This document shows positions 23,868 to 41,584 of a DNA stretch of 64,000 bases, one piece after another (within the stretch, counting starts at the first letter, position 1; the number at the start of each line of letters is the position of its first letter). The position numbers and the translations under genes were made by a program. The DNA comes from Acidobacteriota bacterium. Lineage in GTDB: Bacteria; Acidobacteriota; Blastocatellia; UBA7656. The notes below the pieces were generated by a model that was given only the letters and a program-made list of their open reading frames with translations, did no database searches and was not told the DNA's origin. The stretch lies in assembly GCA_038040445.1 (NCBI GenBank), contig JBBPIG010000003.1, positions 1-64,000 of the forward strand. The letters are read 5' to 3'.

Positions 23868-24001
23868 CGGCGCGATCATTTTCGAGTAGCGGGTGTTCGG
23901 TGTCTGATATTTCTCATCACAAGCGCAATGCTTCATAGCTTGTAATCAGGCTGTACTGGTAATCATTTCCCGACGTTGGGTCATCGATTGTGAGGCGCGG
24001 A

Positions 24002-26305
24002 ATGAGACTCAAACTGGTAGTCGTCGCCATTTATGGGCTGTTGCTATTTCTGCCCGTCGGCTTCTCGATGCGCTCGCTGGCTTTTTCTGATAGCGACGAA
24101 CAGGGGCAGGGGAAAACTCAATTCACTCCGATCGCCTTCGATACGACCGGCAGAAGGGGTCTGGTCCTTTTCAACCACAAGACCCACGAAGCATTGCTTA
24201 ATCCCGATCCGAACTTTCCTCATAAAGCACCCGAGGGCGTCGCCTGCATCGGATGCCATCACTCGGTAAAAGAGGAAACCACCAGAGCTCAGTTTCAAAA
24301 GTGCACAGCTTGCCATAAGGACGAGGGCAATGCCACGAACCCGGACGATCGCGAAGGCTACGATCTGAACTCGCGAGAGGCTTTTCACCGGCTCTGCATC
24401 AGTTGCCATCGCGCTTCAAACCTCAAAGCCTCGAACGCTCGATTCCGCGACGTCGGGTTCACGAAGTGCGCCCAGTGCCACGACAATCAAGCTGAGCCTA
24501 TGCAGTTGGCCGCGCAGCCCGAAGTCGTTCCGCCGCCGGATGAAGAGCCTGAAGCGCCTCCGTCTCTTGGCAGACCAGTCGAGATCTTCACAACGCCCAT
24601 GGACCCGCCGCGAGGTTACGCTGGCGGCTCCCGCATAGACACTCCGACGCAGACGTCGCCTGATTCCATTCCGAGCCCGGACCGCTGGCGCATCGGTCTT
24701 CCGGAAGATCCCCGCTTTGAGCAAGGCAAGTGGTACAACCCCTATCGCCAGAACGTGCTCAAGGGCGATTATCCGATATACAAGCAGCAGAATTTTCTCG
24801 TACTGACTCTTGAGAGTGACACTCTTGCTATTTTTAGGCGGCTGCCTCTGCCGAGCGATATGAGCAGCGCGCGCCCCGACAGCGCGGAGTTCTTCGGCCG
24901 GGGCGTGAATGAGTTCTTCCGTCAGAACTTCACTCTGGGCATCGAATTCTTTAACGGCGATGCAGCGTTCAAGCCTATCAATTGGCGGTTCCGGTTCACA
25001 CCCAACTTCAATATCAACTATTTCAACACTCAGGAAAACGGCATCGTCAACATTGACGTTCGCAGACAGACGAATCGAACCGACAGCTACACGGGCTTCC
25101 AGGAGTTGTTCACCGAGTTCAAGATCGGAGACACAACCAAGCTCATGCCGTTCTTGCGCGGGGCAGGGAGCGACGGCGGCAAGAGTCCCTATTACGATTC
25201 AACCTTCATTCGCACAGGCATACAGCAGTTCATTAGCGATTTTCGCGGGTTCATCTTCAACGATTTCAACCTGGGTGCGCGGGTGTTTGGCCAATTCGCA
25301 AACAACCGATACAACTTCAACGCAGCCTATTTCCACCTGCTCGAGAAAGACACCAACAGCGAGTTGAACACCCGCGTCAACCTCAGCGAGTTCCGCAATC
25401 AGACGGTGTTCATCGCCAACCTCTTTCGCCAGGACACCAAGTGGAAAGGCTACACCACTCAGTTCAGCTTTCACTACAACAACGATCGACCGAGCAGGCA
25501 CTTCGACGAAAACGACTTCCTGGTTCGGCCCGGGTTGTTCGGCTCTGTCAGAGAGCACGGGATAAAAGCTTACTACCTTGGCTGGGCCGGCGATGGTCAC
25601 ATCGGCCTCAACAATATCTCGCACGCTTTTTATCAGGCGTTCGGCCACGACTCGTTCAATCAAATCGCAGGCAAGAGGACAAGCATCAACGCGCAACAGG
25701 CGGCAATCGAGTTGTCGCGTGACAGAGATTGGCTGCGGTACAAAGGATCGTTCTTCTTCGCATCGGGCGACAAGGAGCCGTTTGACGATAGGGCAACCGG
25801 CTTCGACGCGATTGTGGACATCCCTGAATTCGCCGGAGGGAAATTCAGCTACTGGAACAGCCAGGGCATTCGCCTGCTCGGCACCGGAGTCGGTTTGAAG
25901 AGTGGCGAGAGCCTGTTGCCTACCTTGCGCAGCAGCAAGTTTGAAGGACAGGCCAGCTTCGTCAATCCTGGAATCTTCCTATACAATCTGGGAATTGAAG
26001 CCGAGCTGACTCCGAAGCTTCGCGGCATAGCCAACATCAATTATCTGCACTTCCATCACACGGAGTCGTTGAAGGAAATCCTGTTTCAGCCGAATATCCG
26101 CAAGAGCATCGGATTCGACTACGGGGTCGGCGTCCTCTATCGGCCTTTCCTGACAGAGAACTGGATCATTCAGGGCGGGTTCTCATCGCTGATACCCGGA
26201 GCAGGGTTCAACGACATCTACACTTCAAATTGCACCGGACAGGGATGCGGGCAGCGGTCCAAGACTCTCTTTTCGTCATTCATACGCTTGAAGTTTACTT
26301 ACTGA
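24002..26305 (+). CDS. Tetrahaem cytochrome c fused to an outer-membrane beta-barrel
   Basis: A 767-residue protein with a signal peptide ('MRLKLVVVAIYGLLLFLPVG') and four CXXCH haem sites between about residues 80 and 162 (CIGCH, CTACH, CISCH, CAQCH), with extra His in 'FNHKTHE' for axial ligation. A Pro/Glu-rich linker follows (about 170-215). From about 245 to the end it has alternating amphipathic strands typical of an outer-membrane barrel, ending 'FIRLKFTY'. The cytochrome half is a paralogue of the free tetrahaem protein at 30542, down to the signal peptide. Porin-cytochrome conduits normally use separate barrel and cytochrome subunits; here both are in one chain. I start at ATG 24002; a GTG at 23990 would add only four residues. 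It is the first gene of the cytochrome cluster, 36 bp before the decahaem gene. Confidence 0.85.
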   Translation: MRLKLVVVAIYGLLLFLPVGFSMRSLAFSDSDEQGQGKTQFTPIAFDTTGRRGLVLFNHKTHEALLNPDPNFPHKAPEGVACIGCHHSVKEETTRAQFQKCTACHKDEGNATNPDDREGYDLNSREAFHRLCISCHRASNLKASNARFRDVGFTKCAQCHDNQAEPMQLAAQPEVVPPPDEEPEAPPSLGRPVEIFTTPMDPPRGYAGGSRIDTPTQTSPDSIPSPDRWRIGLPEDPRFEQGKWYNPYRQNVLKGDYPIYKQQNFLVLTLESDTLAIFRRLPLPSDMSSARPDSAEFFGRGVNEFFRQNFTLGIEFFNGDAAFKPINWRFRFTPNFNINYFNTQENGIVNIDVRRQTNRTDSYTGFQELFTEFKIGDTTKLMPFLRGAGSDGGKSPYYDSTFIRTGIQQFISDFRGFIFNDFNLGARVFGQFANNRYNFNAAYFHLLEKDTNSELNTRVNLSEFRNQTVFIANLFRQDTKWKGYTTQFSFHYNNDRPSRHFDENDFLVRPGLFGSVREHGIKAYYLGWAGDGHIGLNNISHAFYQAFGHDSFNQIAGKRTSINAQQAAIELSRDRDWLRYKGSFFFASGDKEPFDDRATGFDAIVDIPEFAGGKFSYWNSQGIRLLGTGVGLKSGESLLPTLRSSKFEGQASFVNPGIFLYNLGIEAELTPKLRGIANINYLHFHHTESLKEILFQPNIRKSIGFDYGVGVLYRPFLTENWIIQGGFSSLIPGAGFNDIYTSNCTGQGCGQRSKTLFSSFIRLKFTY

Positions 26306-26341: not shown

Positions 26342-29300
26342 ATGAAAGTATCGAAAAATGCGCTCAAGCTTCTGTTGATCCTCGTGATCGTCGGCCTCTA
26401 CGGATTCTTCGTTCTTGCAGGCTCGATGACGAAGGCAGACTCGTCGAAGCGGCCGGCTGATTCGAACGGGGCCGACGCCTCCACACAGAATCCGCCAGCA
26501 ACGCAAACGGCGCGGCCGGTCCAGGCGGCCGGGCTGTTCGGCGAAAGCCCGGAAGAAGCCATGCGCCGAAGCGTAGGCTGCATCGATTGCCACAAAGGCA
26601 TAGAAGATATGCACAACGGGGTGATCAGCCTCGGCTGCATCGATTGTCACGGAGGAGATGCGAACGCTCGTGCGCAGGGCACGCAGAAAGGATCTGCCGG
26701 ATACGAGGGCGCTAAGAAAGCAGCGCACGTTAAGCCACGATTCCCCGACCGGTGGAAGACGTCTGCTAACCCTGAACGCCCTTACTCTCTCACGCTTGAA
26801 GAGAGCCCTGAGTTCATCCGGTTCGTGAATCCTGGCGACCTGCGCGTGGCGCAACTGAGCTGCGGCACAACGGAATGCCACTCCGGCGACGTGCATAATG
26901 TGAAGAAGAGCATGATGGCGACGGGCGCGATGCTCTGGGGCGCGGCGCTCTACAATAACGGAGCGTTCCCGTTCAAGAATTACAGATTCGGCGAAAGCTA
27001 CGGGCCGGATGGTAAGCCTCAGAGACTGCAGACCGCTCCGCAGCCCACCGCGGAAGAGACGCAAAAGAAAGGCATTCTCGCGTACCTTGAACCGCTCCCG
27101 CGCTGGGAGATGTCCCAGATGAGCAACATCCTGCGCACGTTTGAGCTTGGCGGGCGCAAGGCTGCTGAGATCGGGATTCCCTCTATCGAAGAGCCGCCCG
27201 GAAAACCGACGCAGAATCTATTGAGCCCGCGAGGACTTGGAACGAACCTGAGAACCGACCCGGTTTACATTGGCCTGCAAAAGACTCGCTTGCTCGATCC
27301 GATGCTGTCCTTCATGGGAACGAACGATCAGCCGGGAGATTACCGTTCGAGCGGCTGCACTGCTTGTCACGTCGTCTACGCGAACAACCGCAATCCATTT
27401 GAAGCAGGACCGTATGCGGCGCACGGCCACACGGGCGAAAGCGCGAGCGCCGATCCGACTATTCCAAGGGGCGAGCCCGGTCACCCCATCAAGCATCAGT
27501 TCACCAGGGCTATTCCATCAAGCCAGTGCGTAGTATGTCACATGCACCCGGGAACAACTGTGCTGAATTCTTACTTCGGCTCGATGTGGTGGGACCTCGA
27601 GACTGACGGCGAAGAGATGTACCCAAAGGAAGAAAAGAAACTCAGCGCCGAGCAACGCCGCGAGATTATTTTGCGCAACCCCGAAGAGTCCGCGCTTAGA
27701 GGCAAGTGGGGCGACGTCGAGTTCTTGAAATCGATTCGGGATGAAGTTAATCCGAAGCTCAAACACACCCAGTTTGCAGACTTCAACGGGCACGGATGGG
27801 TCTACCGCTACGTTTTCAAACATGATCGGAAAGGGAACCTGCTCGACGCCGGCAACAACGTCATCGCTGACGTAACCAATGAAAAGCTGCAGCGCGCAGT
27901 GAATGAGCCTGTTGGCGATGGTTCTTCGCGGGAGGGCGTGCCGGTTCACCTGAAGGACATTCACGAAGAGAAGGGGATGCACTGCGTGGATTGTCACTTT
28001 AAGCAGGACAATCATGGCGACGGAAAGCTCTACGGTGAAGTGCGCGCCGCTATCGAGATTGATTGCATTGACTGTCACGGGACGATTACCAAGCGGGCAG
28101 ATCCGACTTCGCGAGATGCATTGACCACTGCAGCCGCGGGCGGCAATCGCATGCTCGACTACCGGAATCTTCCTTCGCGCAAGGATCGGTTCTTCAAGAA
28201 GGACGGTAAACTGTTTCAGCGCGGGGCGGTCGCGAAAGACCAAGAAGGCAAGCCGCTCGTCTGGGAAGTAAGGCAGGTGATGGATAGCATCACGCCCGGA
28301 AACGAGCACTACAACGAGAAGGCCGCGCTCGCCAAGACGATTCTCAAGGACGGAAAGACCTGGGGCAGTGCGCCGAAGGATGACGTTCAGCTTGCGCACG
28401 CAAACAAGAGCATGACCTGCTTCACCTGTCATACCTCGTGGACGCCGAGTTGTTTCGGCTGTCACCTGAAGCAGACGGCGAACCAGCAGAAGCCGATGCT
28501 GCACAACGAAGGAACGGAGTCGCTGCGCAACTACTCGTCTTACAACTTCCAGACCTTGCGCGACGACGTCTTCTTGTTGGGTAAGGACGGCACGGTGACC
28601 GGACGGCGGGTGGCGCCGGTGCGTTCCGCCTGCGCGGTTTTTGTAAGCTCTCAGAATGCGAATCGCGAGTGGATTTACTCGCAACAGCAGACGGTCTCCG
28701 CGGAGGGATACAGCGGCATATCTTTCAGCTCGCACTTCCCGCATACCGTGCGAACGACCGAGACCAAAGGCTGCGCCGATTGTCACCTCTCTGAAAACAA
28801 CGATAACAATGCGTACATGGCAATGGCCCTGATGCAGGGAACCAACTTCTATAACTTCATCGGGCGATTCATGTACGTGGCGCAGAAAGAACACGGCTTT
28901 GAGGCAGTTGTCGTCACCGAGCGCGACGAGCCGCAAGCGGTCATCGGAAGCTCTTTGCACAAGCTGGCTTTCCCTGAGGAATACAAGAAGCATTTAGAGC
29001 TTAAGAAGGAACTGGAGGAGTTTTACGAGCATCCGGGCAACGACGTTGGCACGAACCTCACGCTATTCAAGAAGGAGAAGACCGAAGTCTTGATGCTGCA
29101 GCACCGAGGCGAGTTTCTATACGCGGCGACCGGCGAGGGCGGCCTCAGAGTCTACGATATAGCCAACGTGGATCAGAAGGCCTTCTCGGAGCGAATAACC
29201 ACGGCCCCGTTCTCGCCTCTCGGGCAGCGGCTCTATGTCAAAACGAAGTACGCGACCGCGGTGGCCACACCGTCGACCACAGCCGTCGATCCTACACGTA

Positions 29301-30475
29301 AGCACTATCCGCAGAACGAGGAATGGGAGAACCGCGACGACAAGCAGGGGATAAATCTGATTTATGCGTTCCTCTACGTCGCGGACAAGTATGAGGGGTT
29401 GGTCCTCGTAAATGTGGCCACGCTGCTGGATGGGAATCCGAGGAATAATTTCCTCAAGCGGGCGCTCACCTGGAACCCGAACGGAATTCTGAACGGAGCT
29501 AACAACATCACGGTTGCAGGCTCCCACGCCTACATAACCTGTGACCGAGGCCTGGTGGTCGTCAATATAAGCGACCCGCTCAAGCCTCGCGTTGTCGGCG
29601 AATTCGGCGCGCCGTTCATAAAGAACGCGCGAGCTGTTCAGGTGCAGTTCCGGTATGCGTTCGTGACCGACTCGGAAGGCTTGAAAGTCGTCGACGTGAC
29701 CAATCCTGATAGTGGGCGCGCGGTGAGCGGCGCAGTCGTGCCTCTTTCGGATGCTCATAATCTGTATCTGGTGCGCACCTACGCATACGTGGCGGCCGGT
29801 AAGCAGGGGCTGGCGATCATCGACATAGAGAATCCCGAGAAGCCCCGCCTCGATCAGATCTTCAACGGCGAAGGCGACATCAAAGACGCGCGCGACGTCA
29901 AGGTCGGCATGACGAATGTGAGCCTTTTCGCCTATATTGCCGACGGCGAGCACCATGCCATGCACGTCGTTCAACTGACTTCGGCCGAGCAGCCGGACAA
30001 CTATGGCTTCAGCCCGCGCCCGCGGCCTGAGCTTATCGCGAGCAAAGAGACGCTCGGCCCCGCGCTATCGATCTCGGAAGGCGTGGATCGCGACCGCGCG
30101 GTGGACGAGAGCGGCAACCAACTGTCCGTTTTCGGGCGCAGGGGCGCGAGGCCCTTCAACGCGGCCGAAATGCAGCGAATGTACATGATCAACGGCGCTA
30201 TGTTCACGGTTCCCAACATCAAGGACGGAAACAAGAAGGAGAACAAGGACATTCGCCGGTTCTTCGGCGCGCCAAAGACCTCGGACGGGGCGACCACCGA
30301 TTCGACGCCGAAGGTTGAACGCAAGAACGCGGATGAGACGAAGTCCGGGCAATCGAACGAGCCGAAGAGCCCCGCGAAGGAAGCGCGGATGCGTAACGCC
30401 GCCCAGTTGTCGAGCCTCGCCTTTATGTCATTGCCGCTCGCAGCCGTGTTGTTCCGGCGACGCAGACGACGATGA
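26342..30475 (+). CDS. Decahaem cytochrome c with LVIVD beta-propeller and C-terminal anchor
   Basis: A 1377-residue exported protein, the largest of the cluster. An N-terminal signal anchor ('[18 protein letters not shown]') is followed by nine CXXCH sites (CIDCH twice, CTACH, CVVCH, CVDCH, CIDCH, CFTCH, CFGCH, CADCH) spread over about residues 78-820. One further CX4CH site, C-G-T-T-E-C-H, lies near residue 180. The C-terminal third (about 920-1220) has LVIVD-type propeller repeats ('[11 protein letters not shown]', '[16 protein letters not shown]', '[12 protein letters not shown]', '[14 protein letters not shown]'). The chain ends with a short hydrophobic segment and six Arg ('[17 protein letters not shown]'), like C-terminal sorting or anchoring signals of the MYXO-CTERM/GlyGly-CTERM kind. 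I infer a surface-exposed electron carrier tethered to the envelope. Haem binding by the CX4CH site is unproven. Confidence 0.88.
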
Positions 30476-30541: not shown

Positions 30542-31060
30542 ATGAGACTGAAGCTGGCTGTTCTTATCACTTACGCGCTGGGCGTGGCGTTGCCCGTGGC
30601 TTTCGGCGCCGGGCTGTTCGCTAAGGCGGCCGAGCAACAGACAGAAAGCGGTTATGCGCCGAAGGTGATCAGGCTTGACGAGAAGGGAAGACGCGGCGTG
30701 GTCTTCTTCGATCACAAAGGCCACGAATCGCGCCTAAGCCCGGACTCGAATGCGCCACATCCGGCAAAGAAAGGGGCCGCGTGCTCCGGTTGCCATCACT
30801 CGATTAGCTCGAGGGGAATCCCGCAGTTGTACAAGTGCAACGTGTGCCATCACCGGAAGGACGGCGATCCGCGTAACCCAAAGAATCGAGAGTTCGATGA
30901 GGTGATGGCCGAAAGGGCATTTCACGATAGTTGTATCGAATGCCACAGGGTGGCCGAGAAGGGGCCCACGACATGCAGCGGCTGTCATAAGGCGGGAGTT
31001 CAGCCCGGCACTCTCGGCACAATAAGGGCGCTCGATAGTCAAGCTGGGAGCAACGATTAA
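30542..31060 (+). CDS. Periplasmic tetrahaem cytochrome c (class III-like)
   Basis: A 172-residue protein with a signal peptide ('MRLKLAVLITYALGVALPVA') and four CXXCH motifs (CSGCH, CNVCH, CIECH, CSGCH), two of them CXXCHH. It aligns along its whole length with the cytochrome part of the barrel fusion at 24002: shared 'GRRGVVFFDHKGHE'-type sequence, 'CSGCHHS' and 'AFHDSCIECHR'. The small size suits a soluble periplasmic shuttle between inner- and outer-membrane modules. It is separated from the decahaem gene by 66 bp and followed by a palindrome. Confidence 0.92.
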   Translation: MRLKLAVLITYALGVALPVAFGAGLFAKAAEQQTESGYAPKVIRLDEKGRRGVVFFDHKGHESRLSPDSNAPHPAKKGAACSGCHHSISSRGIPQLYKCNVCHHRKDGDPRNPKNREFDEVMAERAFHDSCIECHRVAEKGPTTCSGCHKAGVQPGTLGTIRALDSQAGSND

Positions 31061-31181: not shown

Positions 31182-32150
31182 TTGGCGATGTTGCGAGTCA
31201 AAAAGAGCATCTTCGCTTTGGCCTGCTTTCTGGCGGCGGGAATATACTTTGGGTTCCCGTCTCACGCAGAAGACGACGCCGCTGCGGCCAACGCCCAACG
31301 GCCGAGACGAGTCGGCGGCGAGCGCGCCACTTTCGATCACAAGCGAAAAGATCACGCCAAGGTCACTTGCAACGTCTGTCATCGGGTGACGCCGCAACAG
31401 ATGGAAGTCGTGTCGTTCCCGGCCCATCCGACGTGCGTCAGTTGTCACAACTTCGCCCAGGAGTTCTTCAAAAGGGGGGTCGCCTTCTGCGGCGTCTGTC
31501 ATCAGGGCGGGCCGACTTCAAAGATGAGTTCTGCGCTATTCGACTTCAAAGAGAAGACGAATAAGCTCCACGCCGTCCTCGGAAGCGATTTCGGCATAGA
31601 CTTTTCGCATCCGGCTCATCGTAAACCGCTGCCGGAGGATTTTGTGTTTCGGCCGGTCACTACGATCCCGTCTGACGCACCGCAGACCAAGCTTACCGCC
31701 GGGCAAACTGCCCGATGCACTGATTGTCATCAGAGGATCAAGAAGGCGAACGCCGGCGAAAATGAAATGACGATCGAGAAGGGCCACTCGACTTGCTTCC
31801 AGTGTCACGGCATCAAGCCCGATACCGCCGCTCGAGAAAAATTCCCGTACATGAACGACTGCAAAGAGTGCCACGAGATTGGCGGCCCAAAGGCTACGCA
31901 CCTGGCCTCGATTCGCGACTTCAGCCACGCCGACCACGAGTATGACATTCGCCCAAGAAGAAAAGTCGATTACCAAGTGAAGCGATCACCAGACTTTCTG
32001 TGCGCCGAGTGTCACAAGTCCGTGGACCAGGCGAAGAAACTTACGGACATACGGATGCCTGAAGAGACCACTTGTGGAGCATGTCACAGCGGCCGGTTAG
32101 GGCTCCCCGACGCTTTGGCTCGTGATGTATTGGATAAGCTGAGACAGTAG
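31182..32150 (+). CDS. Periplasmic octahaem cytochrome c
   Basis: A 322-residue exported protein with signal sequence 'SIFALACFLAAGIYFGFPSHA' shortened by cleavage after Ala. It has eight CXXCH motifs (CNVCH, CVSCH, CGVCH, CTDCH, CFQCH, CKECH, CAECH, CGACH). Additional His residues in 'ATFDHKRKDHAK', 'IDFSHPAHRK' and 'RDFSHADHEYD' are likely distal ligands, a pattern of cytochrome c7/class III-type multihaem carriers. Start choice: GGAGG (31172-31176) lies 5 bp from TTG 31182 and 11 bp from ATG 31188; I keep the TTG but either is possible. It is followed after 23 bp by the nonahaem lipoprotein gene. Its role is inferred as a periplasmic electron bridge. Confidence 0.88.
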   Translation: MAMLRVKKSIFALACFLAAGIYFGFPSHAEDDAAAANAQRPRRVGGERATFDHKRKDHAKVTCNVCHRVTPQQMEVVSFPAHPTCVSCHNFAQEFFKRGVAFCGVCHQGGPTSKMSSALFDFKEKTNKLHAVLGSDFGIDFSHPAHRKPLPEDFVFRPVTTIPSDAPQTKLTAGQTARCTDCHQRIKKANAGENEMTIEKGHSTCFQCHGIKPDTAAREKFPYMNDCKECHEIGGPKATHLASIRDFSHADHEYDIRPRRKVDYQVKRSPDFLCAECHKSVDQAKKLTDIRMPEETTCGACHSGRLGLPDALARDVLDKLRQ

Positions 32151-32173: not shown

Positions 32174-33067
32174 ATGAGAAACGACACTACGAGAAGGCTG
32201 AAACTTATCATCACCTGCGCGGCGGCGATTCTTGTCATCGGCGGGCTGGCCTGCAAAAGCTCAAAGCAGCCGACCGCCAACAAGGCCGCTGAAACGCCTC
32301 AGCCCGCGCCTCAAACGGCTGCCCCGTCACCGTTCGATGTAAAAGAATCCGTGGTGATTGAGCGCACCTCACCCTTCAATCACACGCGCGCCGAGCACCA
32401 GACAAAGACAAAGGATTGCGCCTTCTGCCATCAGCGTTTGGACAACAGCGTCACGCCGGTGTTCCCCGGCCACTCGGCTTGCATAGAATGTCACGCAAAA
32501 GATTTTACAAATACATCGAGTCAAATGTGCGTCGTATGTCACAAGGCTCCAGTTGACGCTCAAGGGACAAGAATAAGTTTTCCGGGGAAGATGAGTGAGT
32601 TCGGCGTCAAAGGGTTCTCGCACAAACAGCACATGGACCCGAAGAAGATGGCTGGCGAGACTGAGACTCCGAAGTGCAGCACCTGCCATCAGTCTACCGA
32701 ACGTGCCGCGGCGAGTTTTCCGAATCATCAGCAGTGCTATAGCTGCCATGTTCATCAAACAAATCAGAAGTTCGGCGAGTGCGGGGTCTGTCACGCCGAC
32801 ACAAAGCTCGCTTTGAAGTTCACAAGGGGTACCGGGTCGGCATTGGGCTTATATAATTTCAAGCACGGGCCTCATACGAAGAAGGCAAGTTGCGATAGAT
32901 GCCATCACCAGATCGAAACCGCGCCGAAACAGGTGCGCGCTGATATTCAGACGATCAGCGCCGGGCGAGGTCAGCGTCATACCTCGGCCTGTTGGAGCTG
33001 CCACGTTCAGGCTAAAGAGTCTGTTTGCACGAAGTGTCACCGCGGTTCCCTGCCGTTTTCCTTTTAG
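32174..33067 (+). CDS. Nonahaem cytochrome c lipoprotein
   Basis: A 297-residue protein with a lipoprotein signal: hydrophobic 'LIITCAAAILVIGGLAC', whose 'GLAC' is a good lipobox, then a Lys/Ser/Pro-rich linker. Nine CXXCH motifs follow: CAFCH, CIECH, CVVCH, CSTCH, CYSCH, CGVCH, CDRCH, CWSCH and CTKCH. Paired His in 'SPFNHTRAEHQ', 'FSHKQHMD' and 'FKHGPHTK' precede haem sites as in class III cytochromes. The lipid anchor could place it on the inner face of the outer membrane next to the barrel fusion, or at the inner membrane. A palindrome begins 8 bp after its stop codon and a promoter-like sequence follows, which may end the first transcription unit. Confidence 0.92.
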   Translation: MRNDTTRRLKLIITCAAAILVIGGLACKSSKQPTANKAAETPQPAPQTAAPSPFDVKESVVIERTSPFNHTRAEHQTKTKDCAFCHQRLDNSVTPVFPGHSACIECHAKDFTNTSSQMCVVCHKAPVDAQGTRISFPGKMSEFGVKGFSHKQHMDPKKMAGETETPKCSTCHQSTERAAASFPNHQQCYSCHVHQTNQKFGECGVCHADTKLALKFTRGTGSALGLYNFKHGPHTKKASCDRCHHQIETAPKQVRADIQTISAGRGQRHTSACWSCHVQAKESVCTKCHRGSLPFSF

Positions 33068-33074
33068 GTTGCAC

Positions 33075-33234: not shown

Positions 33235-33263
33235 TTGCGTTACAGCGAGTGTACAGGTAAATT
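33235..33263 (+). promoter_or_regulatory. Predicted promoter of the cNMP/Fe-S/cytochrome b gene
   Basis: TTGCGT (33235-33240), 17-bp spacer, TAAATT (33258-33263). Transcription would start about 15 nt before the ATG at 33285, leaving room for the GGGTGA ribosome site. This suggests the inner-membrane module can be transcribed separately from the cytochromes. Confidence 0.4.
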
Positions 33264-33284
33264 CTTTGTCGCCGGGTGAGCCGT

Positions 33285-35723
33285 ATGCCGAAAGAACAAA
33301 AGAGCCGTCGCGAAGTCATTAATGCGATCAAGACCCTTCCAGCCATCTCTGCTCTTATGTCCGCGCACGACGGTCACTACGACTATGAGCTCGATCTCGA
33401 AGTCACGGTATACGGGCGCAACTACGGTGGCAAGAAGGTAGGTCCCTACTTCCGCCTGCTGAACTATGAGCCCGGAGAGGCGGTTATGGTTCAGGGGGAA
33501 TGGGGCGGCAACACCTTGTTCTTCCTCGTCGCCGGCGCTCTGGAAGTCTACGTCCGGGCGCCCAACGAGCAAGACGTGAAAGTCGCGGAGTTGACGCCGG
33601 GCACTCAGTTCGGAGAGATGAGCGTGCTGGCGGGCGTTCCTCGCAACGCCACTATCAAAGCGCCGCCGGACAAGCCCGCCCAGGTCCTCGAGATTCACCG
33701 CCCGGCGTTGCGTCTGCTTCGCAAGCTCCCCAAGTTTGGCGAGAACCTCGACAACACATATCGAACTCACGGCAGAGATGCCGCGCTTGAAAGCCTCAGA
33801 CTCACCGGCGGGCTGACCCCCGAAATGACGAGCGAGCTGCGGGGTTATTCCTTGTTCCGGGTGTTCGCGAAAAACCATGTCCTTTTCCGCGAGAATGAGC
33901 GAGTCAATCGAGTCTACATCATTAAGGAGGGATGGGCGCGCCGGACGCAATCAGTGTCAGGCAGAGAGGTCGAAGACTTCGTGGGTCACGGCTTCTGCTT
34001 TGGTCTCGAAGGCGCTGTGAAAGATTCAAGCTGGCCTTACACCGTGACGCTGATGGGCCGCACTGAAGTCGTTGAAATATACACCTCGAAACTGCGTGAG
34101 AGACATGCGCTCAGAGAAGCGCTGCTCAAAGTGCTCGGCACCAGTGTGCCACCCGCAATCGGCTCTTTTGTTAACTACAAGCCTGCTGTTCACGACGCGA
34201 TGCTCGCCGCTCAGGAGAGGCTCATCGAGACGGGGCTCGTGGACGGAACCAATCTGCTGGTGATGGACATGGACCTGTGTGTTCGCTGCGGCAATTGCTC
34301 GCTCGCGTGCCACAAGATTCACGGCCAATCCAGACTCATGCGCAGAGGCGTTCACGTCACCCGCCTTGAAGCCCCTCGCGCGAGTGCCGTTCAAAGCGTG
34401 CTTTCGCCCGAGGTCTGCATGCATTGCGCGGATCCCGAATGCTTGACCGGCTGCCCGACCGGGGCGATCGGCCGATTCGATCTGGGTCAGGTCGATATCG
34501 ATCCCAAGACGTGCATCGGATGCGGCGACTGCGCGACCCAGTGTCCTTACAACGCGATATCGCTGGTCCCGCGCAGACCGAAAGCCCCTGCTCCAGGCGC
34601 CGTCAGTTTCAAATCGAAGCTTCAGGAATTCCTGAGAATCAAACCCGATCCGATTCCGCCGCCGGTTGACACTACCGAAGACCTCGTTGCGATCAAATGC
34701 AACCTGTGCAGCGACCGCACGTCGATGAACCCTCCGGGCGCAAAGACCCGAGCGTACAGTTGTGAAGAGAACTGCCCCACGGGAGCGCTCGCGCGCGTCA
34801 GGCCGCGAGAATATTTCACCGAGATCGGCCAGATCGAAGGCTTGCTGCTGGTCGATAAGACTCATGCCTACGGGCGTAACATACACAAGTCCGATCCGCC
34901 GAAACGCTTGATTCATTTGGCAGGCATATTGTTCACCGTGCTGGCGACCGCCGCAACAATCTTCGGACTACAGCAATATGGACTGGGCGAGCGCATCTTC
35001 AGCTTCCTGAACATGCGCTGGATCACGGGCATAGCCGGCCTCGTTGGAATCGCGGCGGTGATGACTTATCCGGTGAGGCGGCAGATCTACACCAAGCGCG
35101 TAGGGCCGCTGCGCTATTGGATGCTGGCGCACGCTTATGTGGGAATAATCGCGGGGATGTTGATCCTGCTGCACGGCGGCACTCATTCCGGGGGCGCGCT
35201 CACCACTGCGCTAATGGTCTGCTACGATCTGGTCATCTTCACTGGCATACTGGGAATCTTTATCTACTTTTTCGCGCCTCGAAAGCTCACGAAGATTGAA
35301 GGCACGCCGCTCCTGATCGATGATCTAAAAGACCGGCGCGAGGAGTTGCGGAAGGAGATTGCGGAGATCGGCGGCCAGGCAGCCGGACCGCTTCAAAGCA
35401 TCGTGAAGGACAAAGTGGTGCCGCGTTTTGTCTCGTTCGGTTTTCTGTTGCGGCAGTTTCTCGGCCGAAAAGATCTGGACGAGATGGTTGAATCAGCAAA
35501 GGCGGGATTCAACCAGGAGCGGGCAAGTCTGGCGAACGAGAAAGACCGGCACAAGTTGGATCGCGCCATCGAAGCCGCCGCGACGCTGCGCCGAATTGAC
35601 GCGTTGATCTATCTGCATCGCTCGTTGAAAGTGTGGCTGCCGCCGCACGTGGCGACCACTGCCTTGATGCTGGCGTTGATGATCGTTCACATCATACAAG
35701 TTGTTTACTATGCCGCGCGGTAG
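33285..35723 (+). CDS. cNMP-binding, four-cluster Fe-S and cytochrome b-like membrane fusion protein
   Basis: An 812-residue protein in three parts. (1) Two cyclic-nucleotide-binding folds: the first (about 50-145) keeps a full phosphate-binding cassette 'FGEMSVLAGVPRNAT'; the second (about 185-285) has lost the Arg-Ala part ('FGLEGAVKDSSWPYT'). (2) A DMSO-reductase-B/HybA-like electron-transfer domain (about 330-500) with four Cys groups: CVRCGNCSLACH, CMHCADPECLTGCP, CIGCGDCATQCP and CNLC...CEENCP. (3) About five membrane helices (from about 542) with His suited to b-haem ligation in 'LAHAYVGIIAGMLILLHGG' and 'HVATTALMLALMIVHIIQ'. Start ATG 33285 has GGGTGA at ideal distance. I infer a quinol- or ferredoxin-linked electron entry gate responsive to a cyclic nucleotide. 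No signal peptide, so the sensors and clusters are cytoplasmic. Confidence 0.87.
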   Translation: MPKEQKSRREVINAIKTLPAISALMSAHDGHYDYELDLEVTVYGRNYGGKKVGPYFRLLNYEPGEAVMVQGEWGGNTLFFLVAGALEVYVRAPNEQDVKVAELTPGTQFGEMSVLAGVPRNATIKAPPDKPAQVLEIHRPALRLLRKLPKFGENLDNTYRTHGRDAALESLRLTGGLTPEMTSELRGYSLFRVFAKNHVLFRENERVNRVYIIKEGWARRTQSVSGREVEDFVGHGFCFGLEGAVKDSSWPYTVTLMGRTEVVEIYTSKLRERHALREALLKVLGTSVPPAIGSFVNYKPAVHDAMLAAQERLIETGLVDGTNLLVMDMDLCVRCGNCSLACHKIHGQSRLMRRGVHVTRLEAPRASAVQSVLSPEVCMHCADPECLTGCPTGAIGRFDLGQVDIDPKTCIGCGDCATQCPYNAISLVPRRPKAPAPGAVSFKSKLQEFLRIKPDPIPPPVDTTEDLVAIKCNLCSDRTSMNPPGAKTRAYSCEENCPTGALARVRPREYFTEIGQIEGLLLVDKTHAYGRNIHKSDPPKRLIHLAGILFTVLATAATIFGLQQYGLGERIFSFLNMRWITGIAGLVGIAAVMTYPVRRQIYTKRVGPLRYWMLAHAYVGIIAGMLILLHGGTHSGGALTTALMVCYDLVIFTGILGIFIYFFAPRKLTKIEGTPLLIDDLKDRREELRKEIAEIGGQAAGPLQSIVKDKVVPRFVSFGFLLRQFLGRKDLDEMVESAKAGFNQERASLANEKDRHKLDRAIEAAATLRRIDALIYLHRSLKVWLPPHVATTALMLALMIVHIIQVVYYAAR

Positions 35724-35772
35724 ATCTATAGACCGGTCGCCCGTCGTTGCACTCTAATCAGGGTACGAATCA

Positions 35773-38700
35773 ATGGCTACTAAGAGTCGTTTCATCATAA
35801 AGCGAAGAGACAAGTCGGTCGACGACATCCTCCTCGAAAGTGAAGGGCTGACCATCGGCCGGCTTACCGGCAATGACCTGGCGCTCAATAACCGCGCGGT
35901 CTCTCGCACCCACGCCGGGATAAGAGAGTTCAACGGCGAGTACTGGATCTTCAATCTGTCTGAATCAAACGGCACCGTGCTCAACGGCTGGCTCGTGGAC
36001 AAGACGCCGCTGTTGGACGGCGATGTTATTCAGATAGGTCCGTACTCTCTGCTGGCCAATTACGCTCAGGGGGCGTTGTCGCTCACTGTCCAGATAGATA
36101 CCGAAATCCATCCGGTCGAGGGCGGCGCGACCCGCATGCTGTTTGAAGAGGATCTGGGCAAGACGGTGATGGTTCAGATTCCCGCGGGCGTCAAGAAGCA
36201 GGCGGTTGCGCCCGGCGGCACCGAGAGATTTCAATTGGGAACGGGCCTGTTCAGCGCGGTGCCACCCGCGCTTGATCAGCAGGCGCTCAACGTTTTCTGG
36301 GACAAGCGAAAAAGAGAGGCGGGAAAGATTGCTCCGCAAAGCCTGCTTCATCCGAGAACCAACAAGAAAGTCGGCAAAGCGCAATTCAACTGGCGTCCCT
36401 CCCTCGATCTGCGGCGAATCTGGCGCAAGTCATATTTTTACTGGGGCGCCGGCGTTGTCGCGCTGCTCTCTATCATCGCAGTGATTATCTACGAGAACGC
36501 TTATTCGCCGGGCCCGGTCTCGTTGGCTCATACCTCGTCGCAGATGTCTGCCCGCGCGATTGCCCTAAAGCCAAATGAAAACTCCTGCTCGAATTGTCAT
36601 GGCGTGAGCGAAGGCATGCAGGACAAGTGCGTCACTTGTCATACGACGCCGGCAAATCAAACGGCGCCGGCATTCCTACCCGTCGTCTTCGACAAGCACG
36701 CTCGCGAAAACATCGGCTGCACGGGTTGCCATGTCGAGCACAGAGGCGCGAGCTCCGACTTTGGACTCAAGAGCAACCAGCTTTGCTCGAACTGCCATAA
36801 CGGGAGCTACACCATCAAGACCGGCGACAAGACGGGACAGGCCTTGCCCGTCGCACACGGCGGCACGGTAGGCTATCCGGTGACCAACGGCAAGTGGGCT
36901 AAAATGCTGGATGCCGATCAACTTCGGGTGAGGGACCTCCCCGACACATGGGCGGGGCCAACCTTTGATTCAAATCGCCAGTTCCACTCCATTCATCAAC
37001 TCGGCCGGATGAACAACCGGATGAGCTGCAAAGACTGCCACACCTCAGGGGTGCGCGGTGAAGCGAGCTTCCGCGACTCGCCGAAGGCCGAGTGCGCTAA
37101 GTGCCACGACCTCGTCGCCGGCGCGACAGGCACGCAACGCGTCCAGGCGAATTGCTACACGTGCCATCGGCAGCACGGACGCAGCGAAGACCTGTTGCAG
37201 CTTGTGGCTGAGGCAAAAGACGATCGGAGGATCAAAGAATACTTCAACAAAATCGATAGCGGCAAAGATGAAGTCGGCAAGCGATTGGCGACGGCCAGCG
37301 AGAATCTGTTTTCGGGTGTTGGCGGCGCAGACCAGATCCGCCAGGACAAAGACACTCTGAGCGCGACCGTGCTTTCATCCTTCGGCGGGTTGCCGTGGTA
37401 TGGTTGGGTCGGACTGGTCGGAATCCTGCCGATTGCGGGTCTCGCGGTGATGGCGGTTGGAACCGTGCGCCGCAAATACTCCTTGCAGAATGTAAAAGCG
37501 GACGCCGCGCCGAACGAGAACGAGGTAGCAAGAGCGCTCACAGGCGTGCTCGATCTGGAGAAGCTGAAAGCCGAGGAGGCTCCGTATCCGCATCCGGTCA
37601 TAAACCAGGCGACCTGCATAGGCTGTCACGCTTGCGTGGAAGCCTGTCCGCACGACGTGCTTGCGATAGTCAACGGCGTCTCAACGCCCATCAATCCCGA
37701 TCAGTGCATGGAAGACACCAGTTGCCAGGTCGAGTGCCCCACTAATCCGAAGTCGTGCGTCGTCATCAACACCAAGAAGAAAATCCCAGAGAGAAAAGTC
37801 CCGAAGCGAGACCAGCGATTCAAGACCAATGTCGAAGGTATCTACCTGATCGGAGATGTGTCCGGCGTTCCTCTGATCAAGAACGCGATCAACGAGGGCG
37901 GCACGGTCATCGATTCCATTGCCGAAGACATCAAGAAAGAAGGCGCCAACGGCAAAGCTGAGTACGATGTCGCGGTCGTCGGCATCGGACCGGCGGGGTT
38001 GTCGGCTGCGGTTATTGCCAAACAACGCGGTTTGAAATACATCGCCATCGAGCAAGACAAGATAGTGGCCACCATCCAACAGGTCTATCCCGCGGGCAAG
38101 TATGTTTTCTTCAAACCCGACACAGTTGAGACGAAAGGCGGCATCCCGCTCCCGGGCCCCGGCGACTCGAAAGAGAACATGCTCAAGGGCTGGCTCGGTG
38201 CGATGATGTCGAACGGCGTCGTCATCAACGAAGAGGAAAGCTGCAAAGACATAAAACCGGAAGACGGGGTCTTCACCCTCACAACCGAGAAGGGAAAAGC
38301 CAAAGAGAAAGCCACCTACAAGGCTCGCAAGATCATCATCGCGATCGGCAATCGCGGCACGCCAATGAAGCTTCGAGTGCCGGGCGAGGACCTCAAGGTG
38401 ATGATGACGCCGCCGCCCATAATCCCAAAGTTCTGCCCGGGCTGCGGGTCGGGCCGCAAAGGCGCGCAGCAGTTCTGCGTCGTGTGCGGCGCGCCGTATC
38501 CGGTCAAGAATCAGCCCGCTTACGAAACGGGCAAAGTTCAATTCAAGCTCTCCGACCCCGATGACTACGTAAACAAGAAATGCATAATCGTGGGGGCAGG
38601 GAATTCGTCCATAGAATCCGCGGTTGATCTGGCCGGACTCAAGCGCGACGGCGAAAAAATCACTTTCACCCGCAACAACGATGTGACCCTGGTCGTCCGC

Positions 38701-38943
38701 AGCGATTTCAAGGGGGACCTCAAGCTTGGCAACAAGATGAACGTCTACGACTGCATTGACGCCGGGAAGATCAAGGTCTTCTTCCGAACCGAGATCAAAG
38801 AAATCACACAAAACGAAGTCGTGCTTATGGATGTGCGAAGCAAGGAAGAGAAAGCGCGGCTCGCCAACGATTTTGTGTTTGCGCTGATTGGCGGCGAGAA
38901 GCCGACGAAGTTTTTAGAGGGGTTGGGGATCAAAGTAGGATGA
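35773..38943 (+). CDS. FHA-heptahaem cytochrome c-ferredoxin-flavin reductase fusion
   Basis: A 1056-residue single chain. Residues of about 1-100 form an FHA phosphopeptide-binding domain ('IGRLTGNDL', 'SRTHAGI', 'SESNGTVLNG'). A transmembrane helix (about 222-241) leads to a periplasmic segment with seven CXXCH sites (about 272-465: CSNCH, CVTCH, CTGCH, CSNCH, CKDCH, CAKCH, CYTCH), and a second helix (about 541-563) returns to the cytoplasm. There follow a ferredoxin domain (CIGCHACVEACP at about 615, then a second Cys group), a segment with 'VEGIYLIGDVSG', and a YpdA-like FAD/NAD(P) oxidoreductase (FAD motif 'VVGIGPAGLSAA' about 733, NAD motif 'IIVGAGNSSIES' about 937). A CPGCG...CVVCG zinc ribbon (about 888-905) is inserted. 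Topology permits electrons from NAD(P)H to cross to periplasmic haems, or the reverse. The GDVSG segment normally follows the NAD domain, so the flavin fold looks circularly permuted. Confidence 0.85.
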   Translation: MATKSRFIIKRRDKSVDDILLESEGLTIGRLTGNDLALNNRAVSRTHAGIREFNGEYWIFNLSESNGTVLNGWLVDKTPLLDGDVIQIGPYSLLANYAQGALSLTVQIDTEIHPVEGGATRMLFEEDLGKTVMVQIPAGVKKQAVAPGGTERFQLGTGLFSAVPPALDQQALNVFWDKRKREAGKIAPQSLLHPRTNKKVGKAQFNWRPSLDLRRIWRKSYFYWGAGVVALLSIIAVIIYENAYSPGPVSLAHTSSQMSARAIALKPNENSCSNCHGVSEGMQDKCVTCHTTPANQTAPAFLPVVFDKHARENIGCTGCHVEHRGASSDFGLKSNQLCSNCHNGSYTIKTGDKTGQALPVAHGGTVGYPVTNGKWAKMLDADQLRVRDLPDTWAGPTFDSNRQFHSIHQLGRMNNRMSCKDCHTSGVRGEASFRDSPKAECAKCHDLVAGATGTQRVQANCYTCHRQHGRSEDLLQLVAEAKDDRRIKEYFNKIDSGKDEVGKRLATASENLFSGVGGADQIRQDKDTLSATVLSSFGGLPWYGWVGLVGILPIAGLAVMAVGTVRRKYSLQNVKADAAPNENEVARALTGVLDLEKLKAEEAPYPHPVINQATCIGCHACVEACPHDVLAIVNGVSTPINPDQCMEDTSCQVECPTNPKSCVVINTKKKIPERKVPKRDQRFKTNVEGIYLIGDVSGVPLIKNAINEGGTVIDSIAEDIKKEGANGKAEYDVAVVGIGPAGLSAAVIAKQRGLKYIAIEQDKIVATIQQVYPAGKYVFFKPDTVETKGGIPLPGPGDSKENMLKGWLGAMMSNGVVINEEESCKDIKPEDGVFTLTTEKGKAKEKATYKARKIIIAIGNRGTPMKLRVPGEDLKVMMTPPPIIPKFCPGCGSGRKGAQQFCVVCGAPYPVKNQPAYETGKVQFKLSDPDDYVNKKCIIVGAGNSSIESAVDLAGLKRDGEKITFTRNNDVTLVVRSDFKGDLKLGNKMNVYDCIDAGKIKVFFRTEIKEITQNEVVLMDVRSKEEKARLANDFVFALIGGEKPTKFLEGLGIKVG

Positions 38944-38955
38944 GCAAAGCCAAGC

Positions 38956-39070
38956 CATTTTCCATTTTTCATTGCGATTTTCCATTTGTCATTTTCAATT
39001 CAGCTCAAAGGGTCAAGGAACCAGGGATTGAAATGGCAAATGGAAAATCGCAAATGGAAATTGGAAAATG
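38956..39070. repeat. AT-rich palindrome of TTTCCATT-like units
   Basis: Left arm 38956-38997 (CATTTTCCATTTTTCATTGC...) and right arm 39030-39070 (...GCAAATGGAAATTGGAAAAT) pair imperfectly, and each arm is itself built of short ATTTTCC-like units. It begins 12 bp after the stop of the FHA-cytochrome gene and its composition is far more AT-rich than the surroundings. Confidence 0.85.
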
Positions 39071-39110
39071 ATTGCAAAGACCAGAATTTCACATGTCCCA
39101 TTGAGCTCGG

Positions 39111-39119
39111 TGCTATAGT
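39111..39119 (+). promoter_or_regulatory. Possible extended -10 promoter of the phosphodiesterase-cyclase pair
   Basis: TGCTATAGT (39111-39119) matches an extended -10 element (TGn plus TATAGT) 38 bp upstream of the GTG at 39158. No good -35 is present. Confidence 0.35.
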
Positions 39120-39157
39120 ATCTGAGGTCGAGGGCCCGACAGACGGAGGCAACGCGC

Positions 39158-39928
39158 GTGAGAATCAGACTTCTGCCGAGCAGCGCCGGACGCCAGTCGC
39201 AACTCCAGTGTTTGACCTCATTCATCATCGACGAACGAGTGGCGATTGACGCGGGCAGCATAGGGTTCGCGTTCTCTCCGGGTGAGATCGGCACCGTCCG
39301 CCATATCATCGTCACCCACTCGCACAGCGATCACACCGCTTCCTTGCCGATATACGTAGCCGAAGCATTCAATGTGCTCAACGATCCAATCATCATCTAC
39401 GGCAGTATTGAAGTGATAACAGTGCTCAGGCAACACGTCTTCAACGATCACGTGTGGCCGGACTTCGAAAAGATTCAGCTCAACAACGGCAGCGGACCCA
39501 CGGTTGAATTTCGCGAGCTCGAGGCGAGACAGACATTGAACATCGCCGGCATTGACGTGACGCCGATTCCGGTCAATCACCTCGTACCGACTTTCGGGTT
39601 GCTGGCGCAGAACGAAGTGGCAGCCGTGCTGTTCACTTCCGACACCTATAGCACCGACGAAATTTGGGAGGTGGCGCGGGAGGCTGTGCACTTGAAAGCA
39701 GTCTTTGTCGACGTTTCGTTTCCGAATGAGATGGGCGAGCTGGCTGCGGCGTCGAAGCACCTTACGCCGGAGTTGTTGGCCGTTGAGTTGAAGAAGCTCA
39801 AGCGCGAGGTTGAGGTTTATGCGGTCCACATCAAGCCGACGAACCGTGAAGAGGTGATAAAGCAAATCGCTGCGCTCGACAATCCAAGGGTTTCGGTCGG
39901 CGAAATTGACCGCGTTTATGAGTGGTAA
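39158..39928 (+). CDS. Metallo-beta-lactamase-fold protein, class II cAMP phosphodiesterase-like
   Basis: A 256-residue cytoplasmic protein with the metal site 'VTHSHSDHTASLPIYVAEAF' (about 51-70), a second His in 'VNHLVPTFG' and 'FTSDTY' later on. The stretch around HxHxDH with following Thr/Ala-Ser-Leu resembles class II cyclic-nucleotide phosphodiesterases (yeast PDE1/CpdP) more than lactamases or RNase Z, and the insert 'RQHVFNDHVWPDF' fits that family. The GTG start has GGAGG 9 bp upstream. It lies 12 bp before the nucleotidyl cyclase gene, so one transcript would carry both the synthesising and the degrading enzyme. RNase Z-like or other MBL hydrolase activity cannot be excluded. Confidence 0.75.
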   Translation: MRIRLLPSSAGRQSQLQCLTSFIIDERVAIDAGSIGFAFSPGEIGTVRHIIVTHSHSDHTASLPIYVAEAFNVLNDPIIIYGSIEVITVLRQHVFNDHVWPDFEKIQLNNGSGPTVEFRELEARQTLNIAGIDVTPIPVNHLVPTFGLLAQNEVAAVLFTSDTYSTDEIWEVAREAVHLKAVFVDVSFPNEMGELAAASKHLTPELLAVELKKLKREVEVYAVHIKPTNREEVIKQIAALDNPRVSVGEIDRVYEW

Positions 39929-39940
39929 CGGACGGGGAGT

Positions 39941-41584
39941 ATGCCTGCAAAGATTGTCATTAAGAATTCCGAATCTGGGCACTCGTTTGAGTTCGATCTC
40001 ACGCGAGATGAGACCCAAATTGGGCGCTCTGCCGATAACAACGACGTCGTGCTTGAGGAGAGCCAGGTCTCGCGTCAGCACGCAGTAATCAAACGGAACC
40101 GCCAGGCTTTTACGCTCGTCGATCTGAACAGCGCTAACGGCACGTTCATGAACGGGCAGCGCGTTAAAGAGCACCTGCTGCGAAACGGCGACTCGTTTTC
40201 GATAAGCAAGTTCACGGTCGAATTCAAAGATGCTGCGGAGTCGCCTTCGGTCAGGTACTCGAGCCGCGAGATCGAAGGTACGATGGTGATGCGAACCCCT
40301 AGCGAAATAATGTCGGTCATCCCGCGGATGGACAAGTCGGCGATATCTCAGGCTGACCCGGGTGCGAAATCCGTTTTGGGTTACGTCGAGGTGCTGAGGA
40401 AGAAGGCCGAGACGCTGGCGCGCATTTACGAGCTGAACCAGATGCTCGGGTCGGACTTCTCTCAGGAGGACATATTCAGGAAGGTCAGCGAGATGGTCTT
40501 TCGCTTGACACCGGCGGATCGCTTCCTGGTGTTGCTGAAGGATTCGGATAGCGGCGAGCTATCGACCGTCGCCGCCGAGTTCCGCAACCCCGGCAGTGCG
40601 CAGGCGGGCGCCCAGGTCACCATCAGCAAGACGGTCGTGGATCGTGTGATCACCGAGCGGATTTCGGTGCTGTCGTTCGACACGCTCTCGGACCAGCGCT
40701 TCGTGGAGGCCAAGTCAATCGTGATGCAAAACATCTCTTCGGTGATGTGCGCACCGCTGCTCAGAAAGAACGATGTACTGGGAGTCATTTATGTTGATTG
40801 CCAGGAGACGATGAAACTGCTCAGAGAAGACGACCTCGATCTGTTGAATGCGGTGGCGGCTGAGACGTCTATCGCCGTGGACAACGCTCTGACTCACAAG
40901 CGGCTGGTTCGCGAAGAACTCGCGCGCGCGAAGTACCGCCGCTTCATGCCGCCTCACGTCGTCGACGAGATTCTTAAGAGCCCCAACACGCTTCTCCTCG
41001 GCGGGACAAACAGCTGCATAACGGCGCTGTTTTCCGACATTCGCGGCTTCACCTCTATGTCCGAGAAGTTGAAGCCTCAGGTCGTGGTTCAGATCCTCAA
41101 CGAGTATTTCGCGGACATGACCCCCATTGTTTTCGACCACCAGGGACTGCTGGACAAGTTCATGGGAGACGGGTTGATGGCGCTGTTCGGAGTCCCATAC
41201 GCCTGTGACGCTGCGGCGTCGAATGCCGTGGCTGCGGCGATTGCGATGCAGCGCCGGATGACTATGGTGAATGACGACCTGAGAGCGTTGGGGCTGTCGG
41301 AGATCGCCATCGGAATCGGTGTCAACACGGGAACCGCGACGGTCGGCTACATCGGATCCAGGGATCGAACTGACTATACAGCGATCGGCGACGCCGTGAA
41401 CCTCGCCGCTCGGCTTGAGAAACGAGCAGGCGCCGGGCAAATAATAATTAGCCGCTTCACGTTTGAAGCGATAGGCGACGGATTTGCGGTGAAACCGTGC
41501 GATCAGATAATGGTCAAGGGTAAGCAGGAACCCGTTCAAATATACGAGGTGCTCTGGCAAGAAGCTAGCGAGTCGCCGGGTTAG
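39941..41584 (+). CDS. FHA-GAF-class III adenylate/guanylate cyclase
   Basis: A 547-residue cytoplasmic signalling enzyme. An FHA domain (about 1-95: 'IGRSADNNDVVL', 'SRQHAVI', 'NSANGTFMNG') is followed by a GAF domain (about 155-315, ending 'AAETSIAVDNA') and a class III cyclase domain (about 345-545). The metal-binding Asp pair is present in 'FSDIRGFTSM' and 'KFMGDGLMALFG'. The purine-specifying positions are Lys in 'LDKFMGD' and Thr in 'DYTAIGDAVNLAAR', which points to ATP, hence cAMP. The transition-state Asn and Arg of 'AVNLAARLE' are intact. Its FHA domain suggests input from a Ser/Thr kinase (none is encoded here); GAF could sense a ligand. Its stop overlaps the convergent MscS gene by 4 bp. 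Confidence 0.92.
   Translation: MPAKIVIKNSESGHSFEFDLTRDETQIGRSADNNDVVLEESQVSRQHAVIKRNRQAFTLVDLNSANGTFMNGQRVKEHLLRNGDSFSISKFTVEFKDAAESPSVRYSSREIEGTMVMRTPSEIMSVIPRMDKSAISQADPGAKSVLGYVEVLRKKAETLARIYELNQMLGSDFSQEDIFRKVSEMVFRLTPADRFLVLLKDSDSGELSTVAAEFRNPGSAQAGAQVTISKTVVDRVITERISVLSFDTLSDQRFVEAKSIVMQNISSVMCAPLLRKNDVLGVIYVDCQETMKLLREDDLDLLNAVAAETSIAVDNALTHKRLVREELARAKYRRFMPPHVVDEILKSPNTLLLGGTNSCITALFSDIRGFTSMSEKLKPQVVVQILNEYFADMTPIVFDHQGLLDKFMGDGLMALFGVPYACDAAASNAVAAAIAMQRRMTMVNDDLRALGLSEIAIGIGVNTGTATVGYIGSRDRTDYTAIGDAVNLAARLEKRAGAGQIIISRFTFEAIGDGFAVKPCDQIMVKGKQEPVQIYEVLWQEASESPG

Follow-up and report, generated by a model that had tools for sequence, protein, structure and literature searches.

A circularly permuted flavin reductase fused to ferredoxin, heptahaem and FHA domains in Blastocatellia: a predicted NAD(P)H entry point into extracellular electron transfer

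How a single polypeptide with a phosphopeptide-binding domain, seven haems, a ferredoxin and a flavin reductase handles electrons, and whether it can move them across a membrane, is the question raised by the gene at 35773-38943 (+) in a 64,000-nucleotide stretch of DNA (positions 1 to 64,000 of contig JBBPIG010000003.1, assembly GCA_038040445.1, an Acidobacteriota bacterium of the Blastocatellia; hereafter the window). The gene is an uninterrupted open reading frame with an ATG start and encodes a focal protein of 1056 residues. Pfam matches, hydropathy and motif positions confirmed the domain order given in a first-pass annotation of the window, namely forkhead-associated (FHA) domain, transmembrane helix, seven CXXCH, transmembrane helix, ferredoxin and FAD/NAD(P) domain. 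No characterised enzyme with this layout turned up in literature searches, in line with the same annotation, and in these searches the FHA-haem-ferredoxin-flavin fusion, a permuted flavin reductase of this kind and the NAD(P)H link proposed below were nowhere described. What that first reading had missed were the permutation of the flavin domain, a CPGC..CVVC insert within it and a constant upstream partner gene (33276-35723). Together, the two gene products are probably the inner-membrane part of an NAD(P)H : multihaem-cytochrome oxidoreductase that is gated by cyclic AMP (cAMP) and phosphopeptides and feeds an outer-membrane conduit.

Residues 268-466 of the focal protein are covered by Pfam cytochrome c3/c7 families, and a comparison of the haem domain with solved structures gave weak matches only, to other cytochromes. 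The CXXCH motifs start at residues 272, 286, 316, 338, 419, 441 and 461, and exactly seven other His residues of the domain are conserved (253, 309, 323, 362, 405, 408 and 468). As each of these motifs and additional His residues is kept in 53 or 54 of 54 aligned relatives, a chance pattern is excluded, and the predicted ligands are enough for seven bis-His haems. An eighth CXXCH-like match, CIGCH at residue 615, belongs to the cysteine motif of the ferredoxin. Both transmembrane helices are bordered by positive residues on their FHA and ferredoxin sides, and c-type haem is attached solely outside the cytoplasm; both termini would thus be cytoplasmic and the haems periplasmic, which supports the topology proposed earlier. 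The earlier claim that a single chain contains the whole transmembrane electron path did not withstand the alignment. Neither helix holds a conserved His, Met or Cys among the 54 relatives, and since electrons cannot tunnel the length of a bare transmembrane helix, the one-chain wire was ruled out.

The transmembrane electron step is best assigned to the partner, and probably to its di-haem b domain, because the partner has predicted redox centres inside the membrane whereas the focal helices lack cofactor ligands. The partner gene was found immediately upstream of the focal gene or its relatives in 45 of 45 loci of a genome scan, a count that omits eight loci whose contig stops before the upstream gene. 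Its membrane domain contains two WX3HX13H motifs (W615-H619-H633 and W787-H791-H805), and all six of these residues, together with 16 iron-sulphur Cys, are invariant across 36 partner orthologues, as are Gly657 and Gly660 of a TGILG motif which has Ser in the stand-alone b proteins described below. In a structural model of the partner, helices 541-568, 580-596, 611-633, 641-675 and 788-814 fit five membrane helices, a count that is an interpretation with the further long helices at 681-786 read as soluble, and the two WX3HX13H motifs fall on helices 3 and 5. Model confidence was poor in the iron-sulphur part, which was left uninterpreted, and the matches of a fold search with the model were filled by cyclic-nucleotide domains.

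This pattern resembles the PCC3/PCC4 inner-membrane protein, which has five transmembrane helices, WX3HX13H on helices 3 and 5 and SGXXG on helix 4, and which, otherwise unexplained, He et al. (2017, PMC5566968) interpreted as a b-type protein with two haems. The partner shares both His motifs on the same helices and has TGILG in place of SGXXG. As in the PCC3/PCC4 clusters, multihaem cytochromes and a porin, here a putative porin-like barrel, are encoded alongside, and in PCC4 subgroup II a PF13247 iron-sulphur gene adjoins or is fused to that of the inner-membrane protein (PMC5566968). The differences are equally clear. The small cytochromes of the window have 4, 8 and 9 CXXCH as against the 4, 5 and 10 haem sites of PCC4, and because these haem counts do not agree, the window cluster is PCC3/PCC4-like and not PCC4. 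Moreover, its membrane part carries two cyclic-nucleotide-binding domains and pairs with an FHA-heptahaem-ferredoxin-flavin protein; neither an FHA nor a cyclic-nucleotide-binding domain is named in the main text of PMC5566968.

On the cytoplasmic side, the ferredoxin of the focal protein is of the 2x[4Fe-4S] type with an atypical second motif (CMEDTxCQxxCPxxPxxC), and the flavin domain behind it matches Pfam Pyr_redox_3 (E 7.5e-32) and Pyr_redox_2 (E 6.2e-25) over residues 731-1055. A search of solved structures with the focal protein returned YpdA/Bdr as the best match with the segments in the wrong order, the C-terminal part aligning to YpdA 6-269 and a piece near residues 690-706 aligning weakly to the C-terminus of YpdA and AhpF. 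A profile of 335 positions was built from 13 non-permuted relatives of the same phylum. Its positions 280-329 matched residues 675-723 (independent E-value 4.8e-11), which stand ahead of the FAD Rossmann motif, positions 5-144 matched residues 729-875 and positions 142-273 matched residues 918-1055, and a tandem copy of the focal flavin domain gave a single continuous match (142-329) across the joint. At the level of sequence, these alignments firmly identify the domain as YpdA/thioredoxin-reductase-like with a natural circular permutation. An AlphaFold2 model of residues 600-1056 (mean predicted local distance difference test score 89) contained both Rossmann motifs and the fold, and its best fold matches were YpdA and thioredoxin-reductase-like reductases. 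With 7a7b (YpdA/Bdr), 254 residues were aligned (VIA Z 19.7, root mean square deviation 6.1), residues 728-1056 lying on YpdA 1-265 and the YpdA C-terminus left unmatched, which agrees with the permutation, even though a sequential fold comparison is by itself unable to show one.

Given that YpdA/Bdr are the nearest solved relatives, a thiol or bacillithiol disulfide reductase with YpdA-like function, fused to cytochromes, was considered. The Cys of YpdA (GGGPCGL) is replaced by Ala in the focal protein (GIGPAGL) and is A or G in relatives, and no thioredoxin-reductase CXXC occurs in the focal flavin core; the missing catalytic Cys rules out the thiol reductase, whose probability we regard as negligible. 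The focal protein also scored 143.1 bits with NCBIfam TIGR04018 (YpdA/Bdr), below the cut-off of 339.9. Because of this Ala and the lack of CXXC, the permuted domain is best seen as a reductase that serves electron transfer and does not act on thiols. It shares the two-Rossmann fold with YpdA/Bdr and with thioredoxin-reductase-like ferredoxin-NADP+ reductases, its best matches in sequence and fold, and differs from them in being permuted and placed behind a fused ferredoxin. The permuted reductase was found in at least three phyla under the mere database name 'NAD(P)-binding domain-containing protein', and counts as a separate finding in its own right. The CPGC..CVVC insert, zinc-ribbon or rubredoxin-like, is present in the window's clade and lacking in Chloracidobacteriaceae relatives. 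A further insert of ~100 residues lies within the FAD domain of split ferredoxin-flavin proteins of one clade (L022:490-2301 and relatives such as L070, L071, L078 and L080).

The family was delimited by scanning a genome collection with two patterns derived from it, which find close relatives only. The scan gave 54 loci, all close relatives except L083, which had a ferredoxin match only, with titles naming Acidobacteria, Blastocatellia, Pyrinomonadaceae or Chloracidobacterium and, in one case, a metagenome-assembled genome labelled Actinomycetota. The latter (L053) is a typical Chloracidobacteriaceae copy whose scaffold name says Acidobacteria, and its label is probably due to misbinning. In the tree, 20 sequences (the window counted) are fused and 33 are split into adjoining FHA-haem and ferredoxin-flavin genes, and two state changes suffice to explain the distribution; a chance fusion or assembly artefact was excluded on these grounds. 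The seven haems are retained in fused and split forms alike (one match shows six). In the genome scan the FHA-haem-ferredoxin-flavin set is restricted to Blastocatellia, and the core of ferredoxin and permuted YpdA-like domain ranges wider.

If the set in the window is called type A, the same modules were seen in two other arrangements, B and C. A profile search of 396 genomes of the phylum detected the ferredoxin-permuted YpdA core in other classes too, and in type C, genes encoding a transmembrane helix, ferredoxin and permuted YpdA usually adjoin that of a stand-alone b protein of ~311 residues, homologous to the membrane part of the partner, and those of giant cytochromes with up to 46 CXXCH. 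An Emticicia plasmid carries such a set with 23- and 40-haem cytochromes. In type B (L094, L104-L107), one protein combines a non-permuted YpdA with two cyclic-nucleotide-binding domains and ferredoxin and adjoins a b protein, and a protein with the layout FHA, transmembrane helix, 10 CXXCH, transmembrane helix, FHA is encoded next door. The type B set on the Sphingobium herbicidovorans megaplasmid pMSHV (NZ_CP020539.1, 801-818 kb), annotated as hypothetical or at family level only, is among the closest known systems: it combines the YpdA-cyclic-nucleotide-ferredoxin protein, a b protein with two WX3HX13H, an FHA-like decahaem protein, a barrel-like protein, an LVIVD cytochrome and an HbpS-like protein, and differs in that its YpdA is non-permuted and fused to the cyclic-nucleotide-ferredoxin part. 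The LVIVD cytochrome of the window (26342) is 47% identical to its Sphingobium counterpart across 1300 residues, the barrel-like product of 23990 is 37% identical to a 612-residue protein of that cluster, and the HbpS-like protein (14710) is 42% identical. Relatives of the HbpS-like protein occur near the module in types A, B and C, and relatives of the barrel-like protein and the LVIVD cytochrome in type A, in L084 (type C) and in Sphingobium. As judged from these gene sets, the modules are independently reshuffled across the three arrangements. In L088, L089, L090, L091 and L126:7956-10310 as well as in Pseudoalteromonas, the permuted YpdA is joined to a NosR/NapH-like membrane polyferredoxin (about 780-940 residues), which adds one more arrangement of this reductase.

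The phosphopeptide sensor seen in the first-pass annotation is plausible for the FHA domain, which was recognized by Pfam with E 2.6e-13 and 50.6 bits (gathering score 20.7) and has the usual GR / SxxH / NG residues (G29-R30, S44-x-x-H47, N71-G72), with G29, S44, H47, N71 and G72 near-invariant in the aligned relatives. The source genome has 56 matches to the protein-kinase family, and such kinases could be the writers of FHA ligands; it also has cytochrome c assembly genes. In the partner, the first cyclic-nucleotide-binding domain keeps the FGEM...PRNAT phosphate-binding pattern. The presence of FHA and cyclic-nucleotide domains, a cyclase and a phosphodiesterase together with redox domains would also suit a redox sensor, whose periplasmic haems report the external redox state to these parts and whose NAD(P)H turnover is incidental. 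Yet neither an FHA nor a cyclic-nucleotide-binding domain was seen beside the redox core in type C, and a chain of cytochromes with a barrel is excessive for sensing, so that we consider a sensor very improbable.

For the gated oxidoreductase that we favour, the electron order, cofactor occupancy, gating and all regulation are proposed as follows. NAD(P)H would reduce FAD in the cytoplasmic permuted domain, and FAD would release electrons one at a time into the fused 2x[4Fe-4S] ferredoxin, from which they would reach the partner's [4Fe-4S] clusters. The two b haems of the partner would take the electrons through the membrane, with or without quinone, to the periplasmic side, where the focal chain would receive them at its seven bis-His c haems. 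From there they may pass via the 4-, 8- and 9-haem cytochromes and the porin-like barrel to an LVIVD cytochrome presumed to lie on the cell surface. Assembly or conduction of the complex may be timed by the FHA domain and the two cyclic-nucleotide domains, with cAMP supplied by the local cyclase and removed by the local phosphodiesterase. Ferric reductase/NOX and MsrPQ-type systems likewise join a cytoplasmic flavin reductase, two transmembrane b haems and an extracytoplasmic acceptor. Unlike in those systems, ferredoxins would here stand between flavin and b haem, and the acceptor would be a multihaem c domain within the same polypeptide as the flavin reductase (for the FRD link, see PMC5566968). 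This proposal is supported by the conserved domains, the partner found in all 45 loci, the invariant PCC3/PCC4-type ligands, the reshuffled modules and the recurring barrel, LVIVD and HbpS-like genes.

Outward flow is moderately favoured, as electrons would then run downhill with respect to both potential and charge. The main rival is inward flow, in which an extracellular donor (Fe(II), Mn(II) or another cell) supplies electrons that pass through the barrel and cytochromes to the b haems and quinone, and with energy input via ferredoxin and flavin to NAD(P)+. PCC3/PCC4 clusters with the matching inner-membrane signature occur in iron oxidisers and were modelled as inward conduits for Fe(II)/Mn(II) oxidation (PMC5566968), and a study on Gallionellaceae reports a cluster (403) with a 'Forkhead-associated protein' of ten haem motifs, listed in Table 1 of that source without discussion there, in 27 of 87 of these iron oxidisers (PMC10734462). 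By name and haem number, this FHA-annotated protein recalls the many-haem FHA protein of type B. Against uptake, inward transfer to NAD(P)+ opposes both potential and membrane charge on general bioenergetic grounds and no coupling device is visible; we therefore regard it as unlikely.

Several points tell against the gated outward oxidoreductase. The direction could be the opposite one, as in the PCC3/PCC4 proposal, and by sequence either NADH or NADPH could be the donor. The complex of the two proteins is a prediction, and the literature searches yielded no experimental work on a homologue. Gating may vary by lineage: R30 of the FHA domain is Ser in 10 of the 54 relatives, a loss in one clade, so that the sensor is not universal, and the phosphate-binding motif normally present in cyclic-nucleotide domains is missing from the second one of the partner.

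Where extracellular electron transfer of the PCC3/PCC4 type ends in the cytoplasm has so far been a guess (the quinone pool). The gene sets described here point to NAD(P)H/ferredoxin as a specific site of entry, with a testable partner, and suggest control of electron flow by second messengers and phosphorylation; if true, an NAD(P)H-to-outer-cytochrome module under signal control would be an undescribed link in this process. Tentatively, and with some doubt, a wider generalization may be advanced, namely that a widespread, unrecognised family exists in which a permuted reductase and ferredoxin feed a PCC3/PCC4-like b protein, and in which FHA-dependent phosphorylation and cAMP switch extracellular electron flow post-translationally.

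Table 1. Coordinates of the focal gene, its domains and associated genes in the window.
Feature	Position	Strand	Remarks
Focal fused protein, 1056 residues	35773..38943	+	FHA, transmembrane helix, heptahaem c, transmembrane helix, ferredoxin, permuted FAD/NAD(P) reductase
FHA domain, residues 27-89	35851..36039	+	Pfam PF00498; whole-genome search; conservation across 54 relatives
Transmembrane helix 1, residues 221-239	36433..36489	+	Hydropathy peak; without conserved His/Met/Cys
Periplasmic heptahaem c domain (predicted), residues 253-468	36529..37176	+	Seven CXXCH and seven further invariant His
Transmembrane helix 2, residues 546-564	37408..37464	+	Hydropathy peak; without conserved haem ligand
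Ferredoxin domain, residues 606-662	37588..37758	+	Eight conserved Cys; Pfam Fer4 families, residues 606-658
Displaced C-terminal segment of YpdA-like fold, residues 675-723, TNVEGIYLIGDVSGVPLIKNAINEG	37795..37941	+	Profile and PDB alignments
FAD- and NAD(P)-binding core, residues 729-1055	37957..38937	+	Profile positions 5-273; AlphaFold2 model, fold matches
CPGC-x10-CVVC ribbon insert, residues 888-905	38434..38487	+	Lacking in many relatives
Constant partner: two cyclic-nucleotide-binding domains, four [4Fe-4S] motifs, membrane di-haem b domain	33276..35723	+	
Di-haem b membrane domain of partner	34896..35717	+	Two WX3HX13H; TGILG on helix 4
297-residue cytochrome, 9 CXXCH	32174..33067	+	Lipoprotein-like N-terminus
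322-residue cytochrome, 8 CXXCH	31182..32150	+	
172-residue tetrahaem cytochrome c3-like	30542..31060	+	
1377-residue LVIVD-repeat multihaem cytochrome, 9 CXXCH	26342..30475	+	
771-residue protein	23990..26305	+	N-terminal tetrahaem c3-like domain and barrel-like region with terminal aromatic
HbpS-like protein, 677 residues	14710..16743	-	Relatives co-occur with module in types A, B and C
Class II cAMP phosphodiesterase-like protein	39158..39928	+	Co-directional; also beside module in L030, L031, L034
FHA-GAF-class III nucleotide cyclase	39941..41584	+	Co-directional; also in L030, L034

As the genes from 23990 to 41584 lie on a single strand with short gaps, they could form one operon, with the phosphodiesterase and FHA-GAF-cyclase genes closing the row. 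The barrel-like region of the 23990 product had no match to Pfam barrel families. Outside this row, a fusion of an MscS-type mechanosensitive channel with a cyclic-nucleotide-binding domain is encoded at 41581-43011 (-), convergent to the cyclase gene, and the gene at 20854-23589 (-), which adjoins the cytochrome cluster, encodes a protein of 911 residues that includes a caspase-like (Peptidase C14) domain. Further genes of the window encode a 1251-residue outer-membrane barrel with a CarboxypepD_reg domain (16918-20673, -) and a PF13354 Beta-lactamase-family protein (9759-10886, +).

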